A DNA stretch of 64,000 nt from Lactobacillus intestinalis (GTDB lineage: Bacteria > Bacillota > Bacilli > Lactobacillales > Lactobacillaceae), in assembly GCF_024397795.1 (NCBI RefSeq), contig NZ_CP072985.1:62001-126000 (forward strand). The letters are read 5' to 3'. The notes under the pieces were generated by a model. That model saw only the letters and a program-made list of their open reading frames with translations, ran no database searches and had not been told where the DNA came from. Shown here piece by piece: positions 10,130 to 52,300 of the stretch. Position 1 is the stretch's first letter, and the number at the start of each line of letters is the position of its first letter. The translations under genes and the position numbers were made by a program.

Positions 10130-10996
10130 CTATCCTTGTTTCAAAATAATATCAGTTGGTTTAATATCTTTACCAAAGTATGGTCGTAATTCTTTATTGT
10201 AATCTTTTACAAAGAAACTTTGACGATTAAGCTTCGTAATTTCCTGATTGGTCCATTTCAAAAGCGAACGATTTCCTTTTTTCACCGCAGGTGAAACATA
10301 TTGACGTGGTCCGATACTCTTGATACCTACAGTATAATTTGGATTTTGTTTAACCCATGCATAGAGATAAGAATTATCATCGGCCAAGGCTGCCCCACGG
10401 CCATTTTTCAAAGCATTAAATTGTTGAGTTTTTGAGTCAAACTTCAGTAAGTTCACTCCCTTTTGTTGAGTGAAGTAATTTTCTGCTGTAGTACCCTTAG
10501 TAACAATTAATTTCTTCCCTTTTAATTGAGCTGCACTTGTAATTGGAGCCTTTTTAGGAGAAATCACCCCGACAGATACCTTCATATAAGGTTTGGCAAA
10601 GTCAACAACTTCTTTTCGCTCGGGAGTAACGGTAAAGTTGGCGAGTACAATATCAGCTTTATTAGAATTAAGAGTATCAACACGATTATTCGCATTTACT
10701 TGAATAAAACGAATTTTGACGCCAAGATCCTTTGCCATTCGATGAGCTAAATAAACATCATAGCCCACACGCTTTCCACTTGAATTTACCCAGCCATAAG
10801 GAGGCAAATCTCCAAAAACTGCAACACGTAAATAGCCACGTCTTTTAATTTGTGAAACGCTATTTTGATTACTCCAGCGGCTCGCAGAAGTCTCACTATT
10901 CAAATTAGGCTCTGTAAGTCCAAAATATGCCGACACAATTACCGTGATAATGGCTAAAATCCCCACTATCCAGCTAAATATATTTCTTTTCTTCAT
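10130..10996 (-). CDS. Family 3 amino-acid-binding protein of ABC transporter
   Basis: 288 residues. One N-terminal hydrophobic segment (about 8-27) has no lipobox Cys, so it is an uncleaved anchor or a Sec signal. The rest is the SBP_bac_3 fold: GYLRVAVFGDLPPYG, VGYDVYLAHRMAKDLG, DIVLANFTVTPERKEVVDFA and GTTAENYF match the polar amino acid family. It is the last gene of a four-gene minus-strand operon with the ATPase and two permeases. The leader attenuator upstream of the operon contains clustered Cys codons, so I infer cystine or cysteine as the ligand; the sequence of the binding protein alone does not prove this. Confidence 0.88.
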   Translation of the reverse strand: MKKRNIFSWIVGILAIITVIVSAYFGLTEPNLNSETSASRWSNQNSVSQIKRRGYLRVAVFGDLPPYGWVNSSGKRVGYDVYLAHRMAKDLGVKIRFIQVNANNRVDTLNSNKADIVLANFTVTPERKEVVDFAKPYMKVSVGVISPKKAPITSAAQLKGKKLIVTKGTTAENYFTQQKGVNLLKFDSKTQQFNALKNGRGAALADDNSYLYAWVKQNPNYTVGIKSIGPRQYVSPAVKKGNRSLLKWTNQEITKLNRQSFFVKDYNKELRPYFGKDIKPTDIILKQG

Positions 10997-11011: not shown

Positions 11012-11752
11012 CTAAAAGTCCATACTATCTAAGAATTCTCGTGCTCTTTGCGTTTTTGGATTCTTAAAAAATTCATTTCCCGGCGTATCTTCTAAGATCT
11101 TCCCATCTTCCAAAAATAGCACTTCATCTGCAATTTTAGCTGCAAAATTCATTTGGTGAGTAACAATAATCATCGTCATATGATCATGTTTAGACAAATC
11201 TTCAACAATTTCCTGAACCCCGCGTACCATTTCGGGATCAAGGGATGCCGTTATTTCATCAAAAAGCATAATTTCTGGATTCATTGCTAATGCTCGCACA
11301 ATTGCCACACGTTGTTTTTGGCCCCCAGAAAGTTCCCGTGGGTATGAATTAGCATAACCTTCTAGGCCGACCCTTCTTAAAAGTTCCTCAGCTTCTTTTT
11401 TTACATCAGCTTCATTACGCTTTTGTACTTTGACCGGAGCTAAAAGAATGTTTTCCATTACACTCAAATTAGGGAATAAGTCATAACTTTGGAAAACCAT
11501 TCCAATCTTTTGCCGTAAAAGCTGCCAATTTTTAGGACTAGGATCAATTTTCTTTCCATGAAAATAAATAGCTCCACTTTGATAATCTTCTAGACCATTT
11601 AAAGTTCTTAGAAGGGTACTCTTTCCAGAACCTGAAGGCCCCAGTAACGTTACCACTTCTCCCTTTTTTAAATCAAAATTGATGCCATGTAAGACTTGCC
11701 AGTCCCCATAAAATTTGTTTAGATTTTCAACTTTTAATACTTCTTCTGTCAT
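11012..11752 (-). CDS. Amino-acid ABC transporter ATP-binding protein (GlnQ/TcyC type)
   Basis: 246 residues. The start is the ATG at 11752; the longer GTG start overlaps the ribosome site AGGTGAG. It has Walker A GPSGSGKST, Q-loop region MVFQSYDLFPN, signature LSGGQKQR, Walker B IMLFDE and the H-loop IVTHQMN, all intact, and the length is typical of polar amino acid uptake ATPases. It energises the two membrane subunits encoded just upstream in the operon. Confidence 0.92.
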   Translation of the reverse strand: MTEEVLKVENLNKFYGDWQVLHGINFDLKKGEVVTLLGPSGSGKSTLLRTLNGLEDYQSGAIYFHGKKIDPSPKNWQLLRQKIGMVFQSYDLFPNLSVMENILLAPVKVQKRNEADVKKEAEELLRRVGLEGYANSYPRELSGGQKQRVAIVRALAMNPEIMLFDEITASLDPEMVRGVQEIVEDLSKHDHMTMIIVTHQMNFAAKIADEVLFLEDGKILEDTPGNEFFKNPKTQRAREFLDSMDF

Positions 11753-11761
11753 ATCTCTCAC

Positions 11762-12433
11762 CTATCTATTTTTAGTTAATCGCTTAGCCCAAGCGGATAA
11801 AGGGTAATCTAAAATAAAATACAAAATAAAGATTAAGCCATATACCCAGAAAACACCGGTTGGATACTTTTGATTATTAGCTTCAATGATTTGTTGACCA
11901 ACATTAATAACTTCCATAATACTGATGACCATTAATAATGAAGTGGTTTTAATTACACGGGTAGCTAAATTAATCGTTGCTGGAAGTTCCAATTTTACTG
12001 CTTGAGGTAACAACACATAACGATAAAGCTGGACTCTACTTAAACCTAAAGCTAATCCAGAATCTTTTTGACTTTTTGGTACTGATTCTAACGCTCCCCG
12101 GACAATATCACTAAATTCGGCTGCAACCCACAAGGTAAATGCGAGGACAGCCATCCACGTAGCAGACCAATTTACATGGAAAGTTCGTGGCAAAATATAG
12201 TAAACCAAATATAGAAGAACAATCGTTGGCACGATTCTAAAGAATTCTAGATACACTCTCAAAATAAAGCGAACAATCTTATTAGGCAACGTTCGTAAAA
12301 TTCCAAAAATTGTTCCTAAAGCTAAACCTAAAACTATTGAAATAACTGCTATCCAAATTGATGTCCACAGTCCAGCCATCAACCGTGCAAAGTTACTACC
12401 TTCAAATAAAACGTTAATCCCCGAATGCACCAT
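11762..12433 (-). CDS. Amino-acid ABC transporter permease, second subunit
   Basis: The start chosen is the ATG at 12433, after AAAGGAGAG; this leaves 223 residues overlapping the end of the first permease by about 20 bases, a sign of translational coupling. Five hydrophobic segments and the EAA-type loop (DSGLALGLSRVQLYRYVLLP) fit the His/Glu/Gln/Arg/opine permease family. It pairs with the neighbouring permease as a heterodimer. Confidence 0.9.
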   Translation of the reverse strand: MVHSGINVLFEGSNFARLMAGLWTSIWIAVISIVLGLALGTIFGILRTLPNKIVRFILRVYLEFFRIVPTIVLLYLVYYILPRTFHVNWSATWMAVLAFTLWVAAEFSDIVRGALESVPKSQKDSGLALGLSRVQLYRYVLLPQAVKLELPATINLATRVIKTTSLLMVISIMEVINVGQQIIEANNQKYPTGVFWVYGLIFILYFILDYPLSAWAKRLTKNR

Positions 12434-13073
12434 AGCGAACTCTCCTTTCAAGCCAAGTTAAAAGTAAAATAATTGGTATCAAAATAATTGCATATGCAAC
12501 CACCAGCATTAATAAATATTCATTTGAACGATAGTACATGCCGATTAAATCAAGAGCAGTGTTGGTTAACTCTGGGATAGCAATTACTGAAAAGATAGAT
12601 GTTTCTTTAATTAAAAAGATAATGTTTGCCGTCAACGCTGGCATGCTTAGCGCAAAACCCTGAGGAAAGACTACATACCGTGCTAATTGAAAATTATTCA
12701 TTCCTAAGGCTTTACCACTGTTAATCTGACTTTCACTAACTCCATTAAATCCACCTGTAAAGCCTTCAGCCATGTATGCTCCACCCAAAAAGATTAATCC
12801 GATGATCCCGCACACTTCAGCTGACATTTTTAATCCAAATACAGGAAATGCATAGTATAAAAAGAACAATTGAATTAGCAATGGGGTGTTCCGAGCAAGT
12901 TCAACATATCCGGTTAGAATCTGATTAAAGACTGGTACTTTAAAATATTGTACTAAGCTTACAATCGTCCCTACGATAATTGATCCAATAATTCCAATTA
13001 ATGAAAGCCACAAAGTTAATTGGAAAGCTTGGCCAAAAGTAGGCAGCGCTTGTTGAATTACATTCCAATTCAT
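12414..13073 (-). CDS. Amino-acid ABC transporter permease, first subunit
   Basis: 219 residues with about five hydrophobic segments and the EAA-like loop INSGKALGMNNFQLARYVVFP. It is the first structural gene of the operon; its start codon follows GGAGGTAAATA and sits only about 18 bases after the leader terminator at 13092-13129. Expression of all four transporter genes therefore depends on read-through of that terminator. Confidence 0.9.
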   Translation of the reverse strand: MNWNVIQQALPTFGQAFQLTLWLSLIGIIGSIIVGTIVSLVQYFKVPVFNQILTGYVELARNTPLLIQLFFLYYAFPVFGLKMSAEVCGIIGLIFLGGAYMAEGFTGGFNGVSESQINSGKALGMNNFQLARYVVFPQGFALSMPALTANIIFLIKETSIFSVIAIPELTNTALDLIGMYYRSNEYLLMLVVAYAIILIPIILLLTWLERRVRYGAFGD

Positions 13074-13091
13074 TATTTACCTCCACAAAAC

Positions 13092-13129
13092 AAAAAAGAT
13101 CTACGAAAACTCAGTTTCGTAGATCTTAA
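13092..13129 (-). terminator. Leader terminator (attenuator) ahead of the amino-acid ABC operon
   Basis: Read on the minus strand, AAGATCTACGAAA pairs with TTTCGTAGATCTT around a five-base loop and is followed by a T6 run. It lies between the operon promoter (13301-13329) and the first start codon at 13073, so it is a regulatory terminator and not an end-of-gene one. I could not identify the competing antiterminator by eye. Confidence 0.75.
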
Positions 13130-13149
13130 AACAGTTATTTCTAAAATAG

Positions 13150-13248
13150 CTATGAAGTACGGTTGCTGAATTTTTCTGCATGACAAATATTGCTGTCGCA
13201 ACGACAACATACCTTTACTGATTTATTTGCCAAGTTTAAATTCAACAT
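13150..13248 (-). CDS. Cysteine-rich leader peptide (32 or 34 aa), candidate attenuation peptide
   Basis: An ORF too short for usual gene calling starts at ATG 13248 (or 13254), with AAGGGAG seven bases ahead of the inner ATG, and stops at TAG 13150. The second half reads VKVCCRCDSNICHAEKF: four Cys codons within nine residues (TGT TGT CGT TGC ... TGT). A strong hairpin, GTTGTCG ttg CGACAGC, overlies these codons. An intrinsic terminator follows 20 bases after the stop and then the ABC transporter operon. Together this is the layout of ribosome-mediated transcription attenuation that senses charged tRNA-Cys. The ORF, spacing and terminator are seen; the regulatory role is inference. Confidence 0.6.
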   Translation of the reverse strand: MLNLNLANKSVKVCCRCDSNICHAEKFSNRTS

Positions 13249-13300
13249 TTTCATACTCCCTTCTAGCTACTTACATTAAGTAACTCATTAATCGACTTCT

Positions 13301-13329
13301 AGTTTAGAATTAAACTTACTTTTTGTCAA
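13301..13329 (-). promoter_or_regulatory. Promoter of the cysteine leader / ABC operon
   Basis: Minus strand: TTGACA (13329-13324), 17-base spacer, TAAACT (13306-13301). It places the transcript start near 13294, about 40 bases before the leader peptide and 220 before the first transporter gene. Confidence 0.6.
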
Positions 13330-13397
13330 TTATTTTATTTAAATTTATTAATATTAATTTTCTATCGATTCCTATAAGAAAATAATATAGTTAGAAA

Positions 13398-13841
13398 TTA
13401 CTCATCGATCCTATAATAACTCCCATTCTCATCAACAATACCTTTTAATTGCCTACTTTCGCCGTCCTTAGAATGAATTTCTCCTAAATCAATTTCTCCA
13501 TAGGCCTTATCATAATCAGTTACAGTAATATTACTAAAGCTATGTTTGAAAAACTTGCGGCTTATTTTACTTTTAACACGCACATCCTTGGATTTTTCAT
13601 AAGCAGCAGCCAGAGTATATCCTTCATCTAATTGATCCTTTATAAAGGCAATCAAATATACGGTAGCCAAACTGTAACGACGAACTCCTGCGTTTTCATC
13701 ATCAATAGGCTTAATATATCCCTTCTTTTCCCAATAGCGAAGCTGTCTTTGAGAAACCCCGACTATTTTACTTACTTCTCCAATGCCGATTGCTAAATTT
13801 TTAAAAAGTTCATGAATAGCTTTCGCTTTATTTGTTGTCAT
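13398..13841 (-). CDS. MerR-family transcriptional regulator
   Basis: 147 residues. The MerR helix-turn-helix is at about residues 19-85: IGEVSKIVGVSQRQLRYWEKKGYIKP, then a wing region with RRYSLATVYLI. There is no cysteine metal-binding loop, and the C-terminus is short, with no obvious ligand-binding domain. It is transcribed divergently from the drug exporter, so it probably controls that gene by acting on the shared 156-base promoter region. Confidence 0.88.
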   Translation of the reverse strand: MTTNKAKAIHELFKNLAIGIGEVSKIVGVSQRQLRYWEKKGYIKPIDDENAGVRRYSLATVYLIAFIKDQLDEGYTLAAAYEKSKDVRVKSKISRKFFKHSFSNITVTDYDKAYGEIDLGEIHSKDGESRQLKGIVDENGSYYRIDE

Positions 13842-13997: not shown

Positions 13998-15470
13998 ATG
14001 AATAAAGTACCCACCGATATTCATGGAAATAAATACAATCGGAATTTACTTGTTTTGGTTCTAATCATCGGCTCCTTCTGTACGGTTTTAAATGGGACCC
14101 TTTTGTCAACAGCGCTTCCATCTATCATGCGCTCTTTTAATATTAGTACAGCAACCGCCGAATGGCTTTCAACGGCATTCTTGCTCGTTAATGGTGTGAT
14201 GATTCCAATTTCTGCTTGGTTAATCAATCGCTTTGGCTCAAGAAAAATGTATCTAAGTGCCATGTCAGTCTTCTTTATTGGAACTGTAATTGCAGCTATT
14301 GCTCCCAATTTTCAATTACTTCTTCTGGGAAGAATTATTCAAGGATTAGGAGTTGGAGTTACAATGCCACTTCTTCAAACAATCATGCTTTCCATCTTCC
14401 CCCCCGATAAACGTGGGGCTGCGATGGGAACAGTCGGAATTGTTATTGGGCTTGCACCAGCGATTGGACCAACTTTATCTGGTTGGGTAGTCGACAATCT
14501 TTCATGGCGTTATTTATTCAGCATTATTGCTCCTATCGCCGGAATCGTTATCATCTTGGCTTTCTTTTTAGTAAAGGATGTCCTCCCCACTAAAAAAGAA
14601 AAAATCGATATAATTTCAGTTACTACTTCAACTTTAGGATTCGGAAGTTTGCTTTATGGCTTTTCTGAAGCAGGAAACAAAGGTTGGACTAATCCAGAAA
14701 TCCTTGGCTTTATTGCCTTTGGAATCGTATTTGTAATCCTATTTGGTTTACGTCAACTTCACATGAAGGATCCATTTTTAGATATTACCGTCTTTAAACA
14801 TTTTGAATTTTCATTAGCGGCTGCTTTAAGTGGTATCACTAACCTTGCCATGGTTGGAATTGAAATGGTTCTTCCTTTATACATTCAAAACTTGCGTGGA
14901 GTTTCTGCCTTCCATTCAGGTTTAATGCTATTACCTGGGGCTTTGATGATCGGAATTATGTCCCCAATTACTGGTAGAATTTTCGATCGATATGGTGCAA
15001 GAAAAATGGCCATCACAGGGATGACCTTGCTTACTTTAGGCACCGTACCATTTCTATTTTTAACCACTCAAAGTTCTTACTTGATGATTACTGTGTTATA
15101 TGCCGTGAGAATGGTCGGGGTAGCTTTGGTTATGATGAATGTTACTACTTCCGGGATGAATTCACTGCCTCTAGATAAAATTTCTCACGGAACTGCGGTT
15201 AACAATACCTTTAGACAGGTACTTAGTTCAATTGGGACTGCCATTTTAGTTTCCGTATTGACTACTACCACTAACAATAACATGCCAAGTAAAACTATGC
15301 TTCACAATCTTCCTCTTCAATATAAGAATAATGCGATTAACGCAACGCTTGATGGATTCCGAGCATCGTTTGCAATGAGTATTCTCTTTGCTTTAATTGC
15401 ATTAGTCCTTTCCTTCTTCTTGAAAAAAGGTAATCGTGCTCAGCAAAGACTTGAGAGAGGTGAAAAATAA
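13998..15470 (+). CDS. DHA2-family 14-TM multidrug MFS exporter (EmrB/QacA type)
   Basis: 490 residues, fourteen hydrophobic segments. Motif C of drug antiporters is visible (GLAPAIGPTLSGWVVD), as is motif A-like WLINRFGSRKMYL. The family exports hydrophobic drugs or dyes in exchange for protons. It is followed, with a one-base TAATG overlap, by a DUF4811 protein, an arrangement common in lactobacilli, and is controlled in all likelihood by the divergent MerR protein. The exported compound is unknown. Confidence 0.9.
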   Translation: MNKVPTDIHGNKYNRNLLVLVLIIGSFCTVLNGTLLSTALPSIMRSFNISTATAEWLSTAFLLVNGVMIPISAWLINRFGSRKMYLSAMSVFFIGTVIAAIAPNFQLLLLGRIIQGLGVGVTMPLLQTIMLSIFPPDKRGAAMGTVGIVIGLAPAIGPTLSGWVVDNLSWRYLFSIIAPIAGIVIILAFFLVKDVLPTKKEKIDIISVTTSTLGFGSLLYGFSEAGNKGWTNPEILGFIAFGIVFVILFGLRQLHMKDPFLDITVFKHFEFSLAAALSGITNLAMVGIEMVLPLYIQNLRGVSAFHSGLMLLPGALMIGIMSPITGRIFDRYGARKMAITGMTLLTLGTVPFLFLTTQSSYLMITVLYAVRMVGVALVMMNVTTSGMNSLPLDKISHGTAVNNTFRQVLSSIGTAILVSVLTTTTNNNMPSKTMLHNLPLQYKNNAINATLDGFRASFAMSILFALIALVLSFFLKKGNRAQQRLERGEK

Positions 15471-18246: not shown

Positions 18247-18302
18247 CTGAAGAAACCTCCAAAAATATAATTTTCCACAAGTTTAGAGTCATTGGGAGAC
18301 CA

Positions 18303-18757
18303 GAATTACCCTCACTTACGTGGGGAATACTTGATGGATTTTGTAACAATGCTGGTCCCTCAAGGATCACCCCCACCCATGTGGGGAATACTCTTAGAAT
18401 TATTCGTCACTACTTCAGTAGCCGGGATCACCCCCACCCATGTGGGGAATACCCATCTGTGCTAGTGTCTTCTTGTTCTGATTCAGGATCACCCCCACCC
18501 ATGTGGGGAATACACCAAACGCGAGAAAGAATTTTAAATGATTTGAGGATCACCCCCACCCATGTGGGGAATACCTTATCACTCTGCAGGCGCTAAAAAT
18601 GTAATTAGGATCACCCCCACCCATGTGGGGAATACAAATTTGATTATGTCTGAATAGTGGTGACTATAGGATCACCCCCACCCATGTGGGGAATACCAAT
18701 TGGAGATCCACAAACTAAACCTCAAATGAGGATCACCCCCACCCATGTGGGGAATAC
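18303..18757 (-). CRISPR. Type I-E CRISPR array 1 (8 repeats, 7 spacers)
   Basis: 28-base repeats every 61 bases starting at 18303, 18364, 18425, 18486, 18547, 18608, 18669 and 18730; all spacers are 33 bases. On the plus strand the repeat begins GGATCACCCCCACC and ends CATGTGGGGAATAC; the crRNA sense is the minus strand (GTATTCCCC ... GTGATCC). Seven repeats are identical; the first (18303) has several changes, as expected for the leader-distal terminal repeat. The leader is therefore on the high-coordinate side, next to cas2. Confidence 0.97.
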
Positions 18758-50355: not shown

Positions 50356-51981
50356 TCATTCAAAATATGCATGTGTATAATCTACTTCTCCCACCGGATG
50401 CCATAACACACCTTTGAGGTTTGATTTAACCAAGTGACTTTCTGTCATGTTATAAAGAGGTAAGACCGCATTATCTTTACTCAATTGACCTTGAGCACTG
50501 CGCATATTCTTCCAATAATTTTGTTGCCTGGCGGCATCCTGACTTTTGGCATGATCAACATAGCTATCGTAAGCTTTACTACTATATTTTCCATAGTTTT
50601 GAGAGTTATTGGTTTGCATAACATCAAAATCACTCATTGGATCTGCATAATCGGCTAACCATAATGCATAATGCATATCAAAGTTTCCTTTGGCAACATT
50701 ACTTTGAGCATTTTTATCAGGAACTGAATGAACTTCAACATTAGCTCCTTTGAGTTTGTTTTCTAATTGAGATTGGACAAACTGTCCCACATTTTTATTG
50801 ATAGTTTGATCATCAGTATAATATGTTAGATTGACGGATTTTTTGCCAGTTTCTTTCAAACCTTTTGCCCATAATTCTTGGGCTTTTTTAACGTTATAAG
50901 TTTCTTGGGGCTTCATTTCAGTGGCGAAATCTTTACCAGTAGTCGGATCTTTAGCTAATTTAGGAGCGACAAAAGTATGTGCGGCCTTAGATCCATTTGA
51001 TAAAACTTTCTCAGCCAAATGATCTTTGTCCAAAACTAATGAAACAGCTTTTCGTAAGTTAGAATTAGATAGTGGATGTCCTTTAGCTTGATTAAGTTGT
51101 AAGTAATACACGCCAGCACGATCTAAATGCATTAAGTTTTTATTCTTTTGTAAACCTTGAGCAGTAGTCCCCGTGATAGTTGCATCATCTAAGTCACCTT
51201 GCTGGAACAATTGATGCGCAGTATTAGCATCTTTAACCACTTGCATCGTCATCTTTTTAAGTTTTACATTTTTGCTGTCAAAGTAATTATCATTCTTTTC
51301 TAAACTCCATGATAAATTACTTCCCGTCCATCCTCTTACTTTAAAAGCACCATCATAATACATTTTATCGGAGGAAGTACCATATTTATTACCAAATTTT
51401 TTAAGAGCAGCTTGACTTTGGGGGAAGAAGGCAGGCATAACCATCATCCGAGTAAAATATGGCATCGGATATTCTAAATCTACTTGTAAGGTATGTTTAT
51501 TTAAAGCTTTAACTCCTAATTTATTAACTGGAAGCTTACCTTCGTTTACCTTGTTAGCATTCTTCACACCTGTAAAAATATATGAATACCCTGACTGCGC
51601 ACTAGGACTCGTTTGTCTTCTCCAAGATGCAACAAAATCTTGAGCTGTAACAGGATCGCCATTTGACCATTTAGCATCCTTTCTTAAATTAAATGTATAG
51701 CGTTTGCCATGATTAGTGGGTTTGACAACTTCGGTAGCTAAAGCTGGTGCAGGATTTCCAGCTTTATTAGCACGATAAAGTCCTTCCATAGAATTTTCGA
51801 GTACATTCCATTGACTAATATTAGCTTGATTGGCAGTATCTAGCGACATAATTTCACCAGTTTGCATCAAATGTAAAGTTTGATTTTCTTTAGACGCGGA
51901 AGAACTATTCTTTCCACACGCACTGAGAGTAAATGTAGCTAATACCGCACTTGCCGACAACAATAAATTTCTTACTTTCAT
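50356..51981 (-). CDS. OppA-type peptide-binding lipoprotein
   Basis: 541 residues from ATG 51981 (AGGAGAAG upstream). The longer reading upstream runs back through the T-box leader and is not real. Lipobox FTLSACGKN gives a lipid anchor at Cys, then the SBP_bac_5 fold (TFNLRKDAKWSNGDPVTAQD, GAFKVRGWTGSNLSW). It binds oligopeptides outside the membrane for an Opp permease, which is not encoded nearby. Its expression is set by the T-box directly upstream, so it responds to starvation for one amino acid. Confidence 0.92.
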   Translation of the reverse strand: MKVRNLLLSASAVLATFTLSACGKNSSSASKENQTLHLMQTGEIMSLDTANQANISQWNVLENSMEGLYRANKAGNPAPALATEVVKPTNHGKRYTFNLRKDAKWSNGDPVTAQDFVASWRRQTSPSAQSGYSYIFTGVKNANKVNEGKLPVNKLGVKALNKHTLQVDLEYPMPYFTRMMVMPAFFPQSQAALKKFGNKYGTSSDKMYYDGAFKVRGWTGSNLSWSLEKNDNYFDSKNVKLKKMTMQVVKDANTAHQLFQQGDLDDATITGTTAQGLQKNKNLMHLDRAGVYYLQLNQAKGHPLSNSNLRKAVSLVLDKDHLAEKVLSNGSKAAHTFVAPKLAKDPTTGKDFATEMKPQETYNVKKAQELWAKGLKETGKKSVNLTYYTDDQTINKNVGQFVQSQLENKLKGANVEVHSVPDKNAQSNVAKGNFDMHYALWLADYADPMSDFDVMQTNNSQNYGKYSSKAYDSYVDHAKSQDAARQQNYWKNMRSAQGQLSKDNAVLPLYNMTESHLVKSNLKGVLWHPVGEVDYTHAYFE

Positions 51982-52017: not shown

Positions 52018-52300
52018 AGAAAAAAGCACCCCACTAGATCGAATTGATCTAATAGGGCGCTTTTGCGCTGTACCACCTATTTTTCGCTGAAAAAAGTTCA
52101 GCCTCATGCACGTGCGGCCCACAAAGTGAGCGATACGTCGCCGCTATAAAGGGCGGACCCTGAACTTACTAAATATCGTAAATTCTGCTCAAAGGTGATT
52201 TTCAGCAAAACCATCATTATCCCTTTTCACCACCCAGGAATTCTCTGAAAATTTAGGCTTAACTTACTTTTCCTTATCAAAGCTATTGATTAATTCTTGT
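52018..52300 (-). promoter_or_regulatory. T-box riboswitch controlling oppA-like gene
   Basis: The minus-strand leader has the T-box core AATAGGTGGTACAGCGC (about 52082-52065), directly followed by a terminator (GCGCCCTATTAGATC ... GATCTAGTGGGGTGC and T6, 52060-52016). Upstream are Stem I features: AGAGAATTCCTGGGTGGTG, a GGTGG...CACC helix and a basal CTAAAT/ATTTAG pair. The specifier triplet should lie in GAATTTACG (about 52188-52178), but I cannot fix the register, so the cognate amino acid is open. Confidence 0.88.

Follow-up and report, generated by a model that had tools for sequence, protein, structure and literature searches.

Results

A cysteine-codon leader upstream of an ABC transporter operon

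The window, i.e. the whole 64,000-nucleotide stretch of Lactobacillus intestinalis DNA analysed here, carries on its minus strand a four-gene amino-acid ABC transporter operon headed by a short leader region. In the order of transcription, its features are as follows.

13301..13329, minus strand: promoter-like site TTGACA-17-TAAACT, a consensus match only (10/12)
13256..13262, minus strand: Shine-Dalgarno AAGGGAG, 7 nt upstream of the ATG at 13248, read from the sequence
13150..13248, minus strand: leader peptide ORF MLNLNLANKSVKVCCRCDSNICHAEKFSNRTS, 32 codons (34 from 13254), probable start from spacing and relatives
13198..13209, minus strand: control codons Cys-Cys-Arg-Cys, read from the sequence; Cys clusters recur in relatives
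13197..13215, minus strand: segment 1, the Cys-codon region, which can pair with segment 2 (-11.1 kcal/mol; putative role)
13153..13172, minus strand: segment 2, the antiterminator 5' strand at the ORF end, AATTCAGCAACCGTACTTCA (computed pairing)
13109..13126, minus strand: segment 3, the terminator 5' arm and loop, partner of segment 2 (-9.9 kcal/mol)
13086..13127, minus strand: intrinsic terminator and T-rich tail (stem 13127-13096; -15.4 kcal/mol)
12414..13073, minus strand: amino-acid ABC permease 1 (family-model matches)
11762..12451, minus strand: amino-acid ABC permease 2 (family-model matches)
11012..11761, minus strand: ABC ATPase (family-model matches)
10130..10996, minus strand: solute-binding protein; among solved structures nearest to 2YJP (268 bits) and 1XT8 (251 bits)

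Every element listed in the first-pass annotation is present, i.e. the promoter, an ORF of 32-34 codons with a ribosome site and four Cys codons, a hairpin over those codons, an intrinsic terminator shortly after the ORF and a polar amino-acid ABC operon downstream, although promoter matches of this kind are common here (7 found vs 7.3 in shuffles). The spacing of AAGGGAG favours the second ATG (13248), so the leader ORF is probably 32 codons long; its long-start version (13254-13150, minus strand) is MKMLNLNLANKSVKVCCRCDSNICHAEKFSNRTS. The Cys codons lie at 13209-13204, 13200-13198 and 13185-13183 on the minus strand, the last being the fourth, and the hairpin across them spans 13209-13191. 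The terminator begins 22 nt past the leader stop codon, the first permease gene starts 12 bases beyond the T-rich tail, and a scan gave 2 terminator-like sites vs 0.5 in shuffles. An antiterminator, which had been sought by eye without success, does exist: segment 2 at the end of the ORF has alternative partners, either segment 3 or the Cys-codon region.

The leader matches no Rfam family at gathering score, the T-box model (RF00230) at its gathering threshold matches the window only at 52050-52289 and not in the leader, and the leader ORF has no Pfam or NCBIfam match at E 0.01. A MerR-type regulator gene (13398-13841, minus strand) and a divergent DHA2-type efflux gene (13998-15470, plus strand) adjoin the leader.

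Among solved structures, the two closest to the solute-binding protein are well clear of the next (139 bits) and, according to the accessible text of the sources, 2YJP is the L-cysteine-binding protein NGO2014 of N. gonorrhoeae (PMC7170509) and 1XT8 is a cysteine-binding protein of C. jejuni (PMC4757695). These relatives, together with the Cys-type T-boxes on orthologous operons described below, favour the cysteine/cystine specificity first proposed, and the four-gene operon probably imports cysteine.

The leader recurs before orthologous importer operons

Of 75 genomes of the genus, 43 hold the importer permease, at 45 places in all, and the 420 bases upstream of each place were read for short ORFs. 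By inspection, 29 of the 45 places have a leader with at least one Cys, several of them holding only one or two; three leaders (L025, L042, L043) lack the Cys pattern, one (L053) contains Ns and 12 places have no leader. Two genomes (G013, G060) contain one permease copy with a leader and one without. Absence of the ORF or of its Cys codons in homologous leaders had been named beforehand as a result that would refute attenuation; this applies to part of the set, namely to those 12 (no leader) and three (no Cys pattern) of the 45 genus places. The proposed comparison of upstream regions bore out the prediction in that Cys codons, terminator and antiterminator recur in Lactobacillus, Limosilactobacillus and Companilactobacillus. 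Leaderless copies of the importer operon include L035-L037, L039, L040 and L170, the last lying directly 3' of an OppA gene with an Arg/His leader, and in five loci (L010, L016, L018, L020, L021) a second hairpin with a T tract follows the first terminator, ahead of the permease.

Under a fixed rule (the 3-Cys rule: Shine-Dalgarno, 12-60 codons, at least 3 Cys in 15), 14/45 genus places pass, rising to 26/45 with 2 Cys instead, as do 32/80 named loci, which belong to Lactobacillus, Limosilactobacillus and Companilactobacillus plus L121, a locus that carries a T-box and whose Cys ORF is probably due to chance. When 53 leaders, with L053 left out, were collapsed at 80% identity into 31 clusters, Cys made up 113 of the 906 residues of these non-redundant relatives, albeit in ORFs chosen partly for their Cys content; 500 nucleotide shuffles averaged 30 and never exceeded 48, and the two other frames of the same stretches gave 61/906 and 50/906, also above the shuffles. 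With the leader peptide itself as query, matches were obtained in 8/75 genomes including its own, seven of them weak, and the match at L003 lay just upstream of the permease. Outside the Cys cluster, the sequence and length of the leader vary widely among orthologous loci, while the DNA at the end of the ORF remains similar in loci with a different frame (L013, L017, L019), as expected of an RNA pairing segment.

A matched antiterminator and the computed effect of ribosome position

Each antiterminator was compared with its own and with swapped partners in 29 leaders, i.e. the 31 clusters minus L091 and L111, in which the Cys codons end the ORF. Own-partner pairing averaged -13.65 kcal/mol vs -10.24 for swapped partners, none of 20,000 permutations was as good (n=29, non-redundant), and own pairing beat the swapped mean in 26/29 leaders. 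The result held for all 16 Lactobacillus leaders (0/20,000) and for the 11 from Limosilactobacillus (233/20,000), and was weak inside close groups (1,048/20,000 for Lactobacillus class A and 2,076/20,000 for the main 8 Limosilactobacillus), i.e. the signal rests on differences between groups. In alignment A3, 88% of antiterminator cells pair, vs at most 46% when slid, with shuffles reaching 87%; only 2 antiterminator pairs in this alignment are changed on both sides, no excess over shuffles (238/500). The terminator in relatives has 5 double-changed pairs, a number reached in 0/500 shuffles. Taken singly, the pairing of the window's own leader is unexceptional (23/200 and 16/100 shuffles as good).

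Folding with the whole terminator included mostly gives the terminator, so control must be kinetic and a co-transcriptional view is needed. The RNA was therefore folded only as far as the terminator loop, with the 3' arm still unmade, and with a ribosome placed along it, as had been suggested at the outset. Mean upstream pairing of the terminator 5' arm and loop was 0.68 with the ribosome at the first Cys codon, 0.22 with the ribosome at the stop codon, a contrast partly built in as a ribosome there hides sequence, and 0.42 with none. The stalled value exceeded the stop value in 29/29 leaders and the ribosome-free value in 28/29, and dinucleotide shuffles of the upstream sequence gave 0.47, the best of 100 set means being 0.54. 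A TTNTTT pause motif after the Cys codons was also considered (27/50 vs a shuffle mean of 19 and maximum of 30) and is not claimed.

T-boxes occupy the same position in other orthologous operons

A plasmid of L. paracasei ATCC 334 carries a four-gene operon whose permease is 76.6% identical to that of the window, with a T-box upstream (L324; 62.8 bits, E 1.2e-11) that has GAAAG-TGC at the specifier place. In the accessible text of PMC6004538, a cysteine-specific T-box with specifier TGC precedes glnP2-glnM2-artM2-glnH4 on the FAM18149 plasmid; this operon is described as a cysteine transport system that is present on the ATCC 334 plasmid too, with a log2 change of -2.5 to -2.9 in methionine- vs cysteine-deficient medium. 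The ATCC 334 operon found here is presumably this published one.

Among 12 leaderless named loci scanned at E 0.001, eight carry a T-box ahead of the permease, at a distance of 64 to 214 bases and with a score of 53 to 86 bits, in each case under the gathering score of 93; they belong to Lentilactobacillus (L067, L086, L095, L113), Secundilactobacillus (L097, L109), Liquorilactobacillus (L103) and Lactiplantibacillus (L121). A scan of 14 loci at the gathering threshold missed the T-boxes before the permease and E 0.001 recovers them, whereas L077, L088, L117 and L130, the rest of the 12, have none at E 0.001. Read from the sequence by position, the specifier is TGC in 5/8 and ATG-like (Met) in L097, L103 and L121. 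The T-box leaders thus share with the window leader the same place in the operon and control by transcription antitermination, with TGC as specifier in L324 and in those 5/8, but in a T-box the RNA itself reads the tRNA, whereas in the window leader, which has no T-box match, a ribosome on the Cys codons would do so. A SAM riboswitch (L131 4425-4531, plus strand) lies ~460 bases upstream of an orthologous permease in Heyndrickxia acidiproducens and is perhaps a further sensor.

Related leaders before oligopeptide-binding proteins and permeases

The Lactobacillus leader model (R1) identified a second leader in the same genome, MLARTNKMQNRECCCTSCSLFVVLNVQCVS (G000:C3:264342-264519, plus strand), before an oligopeptide-binding protein (OppA). 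A model of OppA-type leaders (R2) matched 32 places in 27/75 genomes at E 0.05: with one place (G025:C45) outside the reading, 18 lie before OppA, one before another permease (L244), seven are importer leaders and five are unrelated. As R2 matches importer leaders too, the OppA and importer leaders are related in sequence. The L244 permease is best matched by a cystine permease model (222 bits, next 139), all matches being below curated cut-offs.

No matched antiterminator was detected in the OppA leaders, with 15,850/20,000 permutations as good in nine loci (two of them Arg/His leaders) and 4,207/20,000 in twelve, and their stall probability of 0.58 vs 0.42 did not stand out from the best of 60 set means (0.60). 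Across 40 OppA upstreams of 12 relatives, for which three gene starts were set by hand, Cys leaders occur only in the OppA-C group, bar a chance ORF at L209; the fixed 3-Cys criterion is passed by 1/37 OppA upstreams outside that group, and T-box-like sequence is present in 6/40. At the order level R2 matched 13/295 genomes, and among nine new places only L262 is a Cys leader.

Other leaders were seen near genes of these kinds. The T-box leader in the window (52050-52289, minus strand; 116.8 bits) precedes an OppA-type gene (PF00496 at ~50599-51753), another OppA of the same genome has a T-box (L179), with L177 similar by eye, and a lysine riboswitch (L187 2418-2593, minus strand; 88 bits) lies near another of its amino-acid ABC genes. 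An Arg/His-codon leader, ELRRRHQNDGLF, precedes a further OppA (L168, L170, L151, L152, L163), has a terminator where this was checked (L168, L170) and is possibly an arginine or histidine attenuator.

Cys leaders before cysteine-synthesis genes

R2 and a further model (R3) also found Cys leaders before an operon with synthase-like and cystathionine-lyase-like genes in two other families of the order, in six genomes of f7 and two of f3. At the order level 374/395 genomes match R3 at E 0.5, so weak matches are uninformative; of the 17 R3 loci read, eight carry a Cys leader in front of synthase genes, and L272 (E 1.4e-6) shows a frame rich in Cys with no cysteine gene seen at the locus. In an E. 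faecalis record the Cys leader before a synthase-type operon is annotated as hypothetical protein WP_002355203.1. The first gene of the operon is called a synthase since its best NCBIfam matches are cysteine synthase and cystathionine beta-synthase models, below cut-offs.

A search of 350 Lactobacillaceae genomes for this synthase matched 144 at E 1e-60, the window's own genome not among them, and 96 places reached E 7.5e-88, of which 90 upstreams were fetched and 89 analysed (L381 was dropped as too short). A leader passing the 3-Cys rule is present in 82/89, followed by a terminator in 82/82, vs such an ORF in 66/1,780 shuffled upstreams. The seven without a leader by this rule are L319, L347, L348, L352, L356, L363 and L366; the leaders of L312 and L318 start more than 400 bases upstream, so some of these negatives may be out of reach. 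The antiterminator again fits its own terminator (0/20,000 permutations as good; n=29, non-redundant), and segment 2 directly follows the Cys codons, at most 7 bases from the third codon in 28/29, possibly the reason why residues after CCC are conserved. The synthase leaders of other families together with L244 gave no significant result in the swap test (4,510/20,000; n=8), five similar leaders pairing at -17.6 to -19.3 kcal/mol and two of f3 at -7.1 and -9.1.

A profile of the synthase leaders matched 91/350 genomes at E 0.05, and 24 loci with non-synthase places were read. Eleven have a leader before a stand-alone lyase-like gene (L395, L402, L403, L419, L421, L422, L428, L431-L434), in L436 a lyase gene is preceded by a shortened leader, L399 and L424 have leaders before a second permease of the L244 kind, and L425 (twice) and L435 before OppA; identification by family models covers L395 and L419 for the lyases and L244 for the permeases. 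In L418 and L420 the leader has no gene within reach, and on reading there is no leader in L423, L426, L427, L429, L430 or L437.

The L. paracasei cysK2-ctl1-cysE2 operon

According to the accessible text of PMC6004538, cysK2-ctl1-cysE2 is induced without cysteine (log2 -2.9 to -3.2 by RNA-seq in the methionine/cysteine comparison), its 5'-UTR has high coverage with a terminator over the palindrome AAGGGCGCGAAA-N16-TTTCGCGCCCTT, and the authors, who call the mechanism "yet to be discovered", suggest premature termination as well as antisense RNA. The leader of this operon in L. paracasei contains CCCRTTRFWRCSAC. In L. paracasei W56, a strain other than FAM18149, MMSQSMFNAINCCCRTTRFWRCSAC and then exactly the published palindrome precede the operon. 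We read the palindrome, from the W56 rather than the FAM18149 sequence, as the attenuator's putative terminator.

Discussion

The leader very probably controls a cysteine ABC importer by ribosome-mediated transcription attenuation, with charged tRNA-Cys as the signal that it senses. While RNA polymerase moves through the leader, the 32-codon peptide would be translated by a ribosome. With plentiful Cys-tRNA, the ribosome would pass the Cys codons, reach the stop codon and cover segment 2, whereupon the terminator would form and transcription would end upstream of the operon. With scarce Cys-tRNA, the ribosome would stall on the Cys codons and open the 1:2 pairing, and the freed segment 2 would pair with the terminator 5' arm and loop, allowing readthrough into the operon. 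The computation established the ORF, its Cys codons, the terminator, the matched antiterminator, their recurrence in relatives and the association with cysteine genes. The leader has the computed marks of an attenuator, i.e. Cys codons clustered in an ORF, a terminator before the first gene and an antiterminator that stalling would free, and by homology the genes it controls make or import cysteine. We infer ribosome stalling, readthrough, cysteine as the substrate and, for this species, the direction in which control runs. Attenuation by a Cys leader, as advanced in the first-pass annotation, is strengthened by the recurrence of Cys codons, terminator and antiterminator before orthologous operons, and the results extend beyond what was first proposed.

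The same RNA anatomy would also serve if the ribosome were halted by an arrest peptide, or by redox or thiol chemistry acting on the Cys-rich peptide as it emerges, instead of by tRNA charging, and Cys clusters could respond to oxidation or metal. This is unlikely, as the leaders share little beyond their Cys codons and pairing segments and precede cysteine-supply genes, and the related L. paracasei operon responds to cysteine supply in the accessible text of PMC6004538. A functional small Cys-rich protein, e.g. one that binds metal or has a redox role, with the terminator as a fixed reducer of strength, is slightly less probable still: the ORFs look translated, with Shine-Dalgarno sites (though these were required by the search), and one relative is the annotated protein of E. 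faecalis, but the wide variation outside the Cys cluster, the want of a Pfam or NCBIfam match for the window ORF and the DNA-level likeness of the ORF end across differing frames all speak against it. Finally, control by a DNA-binding regulator at the GTAAG(T) repeats, which were seen by eye around the promoter and 5'-UTR (13266-13329, minus strand) and in leaderless paralogues too and are a possible operator, with ORF and terminator incidental, is very improbable as it accounts neither for the Cys codons and the matched antiterminator, nor for the return of both before other cysteine genes, nor for the T-boxes found in their place; both layers of control could coexist.

Leader-peptide transcription attenuators are known from the trp, his, leu, ilv and phe operons of Proteobacteria. 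They have in common with the tRNA-Cys attenuator proposed here an ORF rich in the regulated amino acid, 1:2, 2:3 and 3:4 segments and an intrinsic terminator; here the signal is cysteine and the host belongs to the Lactobacillales, and the likeness drawn is one of anatomy. The uORFC-8-2 motif, for which ribosome-mediated attenuation was proposed, precedes cysS in Rhodobacterales and has in common with the window leader a terminator and an ORF that bears tandem Cys codons, but in the accessible text of PMC8632094 it is reported only before cysS in that alphaproteobacterial order, whereas the genes 3' of the window leader encode an ABC transporter and not CysS. Cys-rich leader peptides before cys operons are also represented by the poly-cysteine uORFs that PMC13236596 cites for mycobacteria (Canestrari 2020) and by the cys leaders of Actinobacteria (PMC1262725); in the accessible text they are described as acting by translation attenuation or as having no conserved terminator hairpins, whereas the window leader has an intrinsic terminator and antiterminator. 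Firmicutes are thought to sense amino-acid supply mainly via T-boxes (PMC1262725, PMC2965389, accessible text), and leader-peptide attenuation has been predicted there for the His leader peptides of Bacillus hisS/hisZ (PMC2965389), with a different amino acid, histidine, and different genes. A literature search, mostly without subscription papers, found no report of a Cys leader attenuator in Lactobacillales. As a mechanism this is classical; the novelty lies in cysteine as the amino acid in this lineage, in how many operons are involved and in the swapping with T-boxes.

More broadly, the Lactobacillales probably have a multi-operon cysteine regulon of leader-peptide attenuators that are at least partly of common origin, have hopped between operons (importer, cystine permease, peptide-binding OppA, stand-alone cystathionine lyases and synthase-lyase-CysE), trade places with T-boxes on the importer and supply the mechanism so far missing for the control of cysK2-ctl1-cysE2 in L. 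paracasei. If so, a classical ribosome-stalling cysteine attenuator would sit on 82/89 sampled Lactobacillaceae synthase operons as well as on importers, and would account for the cysteine response that the accessible text of PMC6004538 reports with its mechanism left open; according to that text, the genes concerned bear on sulfur flavour in cheese. Orthologous importer operons would then use different sensors of the same amino acid, either a T-box RNA or the ribosome.

Elsewhere in the window, at 18302-18757, lies a CRISPR-like array with a ~28-base repeat, GGATCACCCCCACCCATGTGGGGAATAC, at a spacing of 61.
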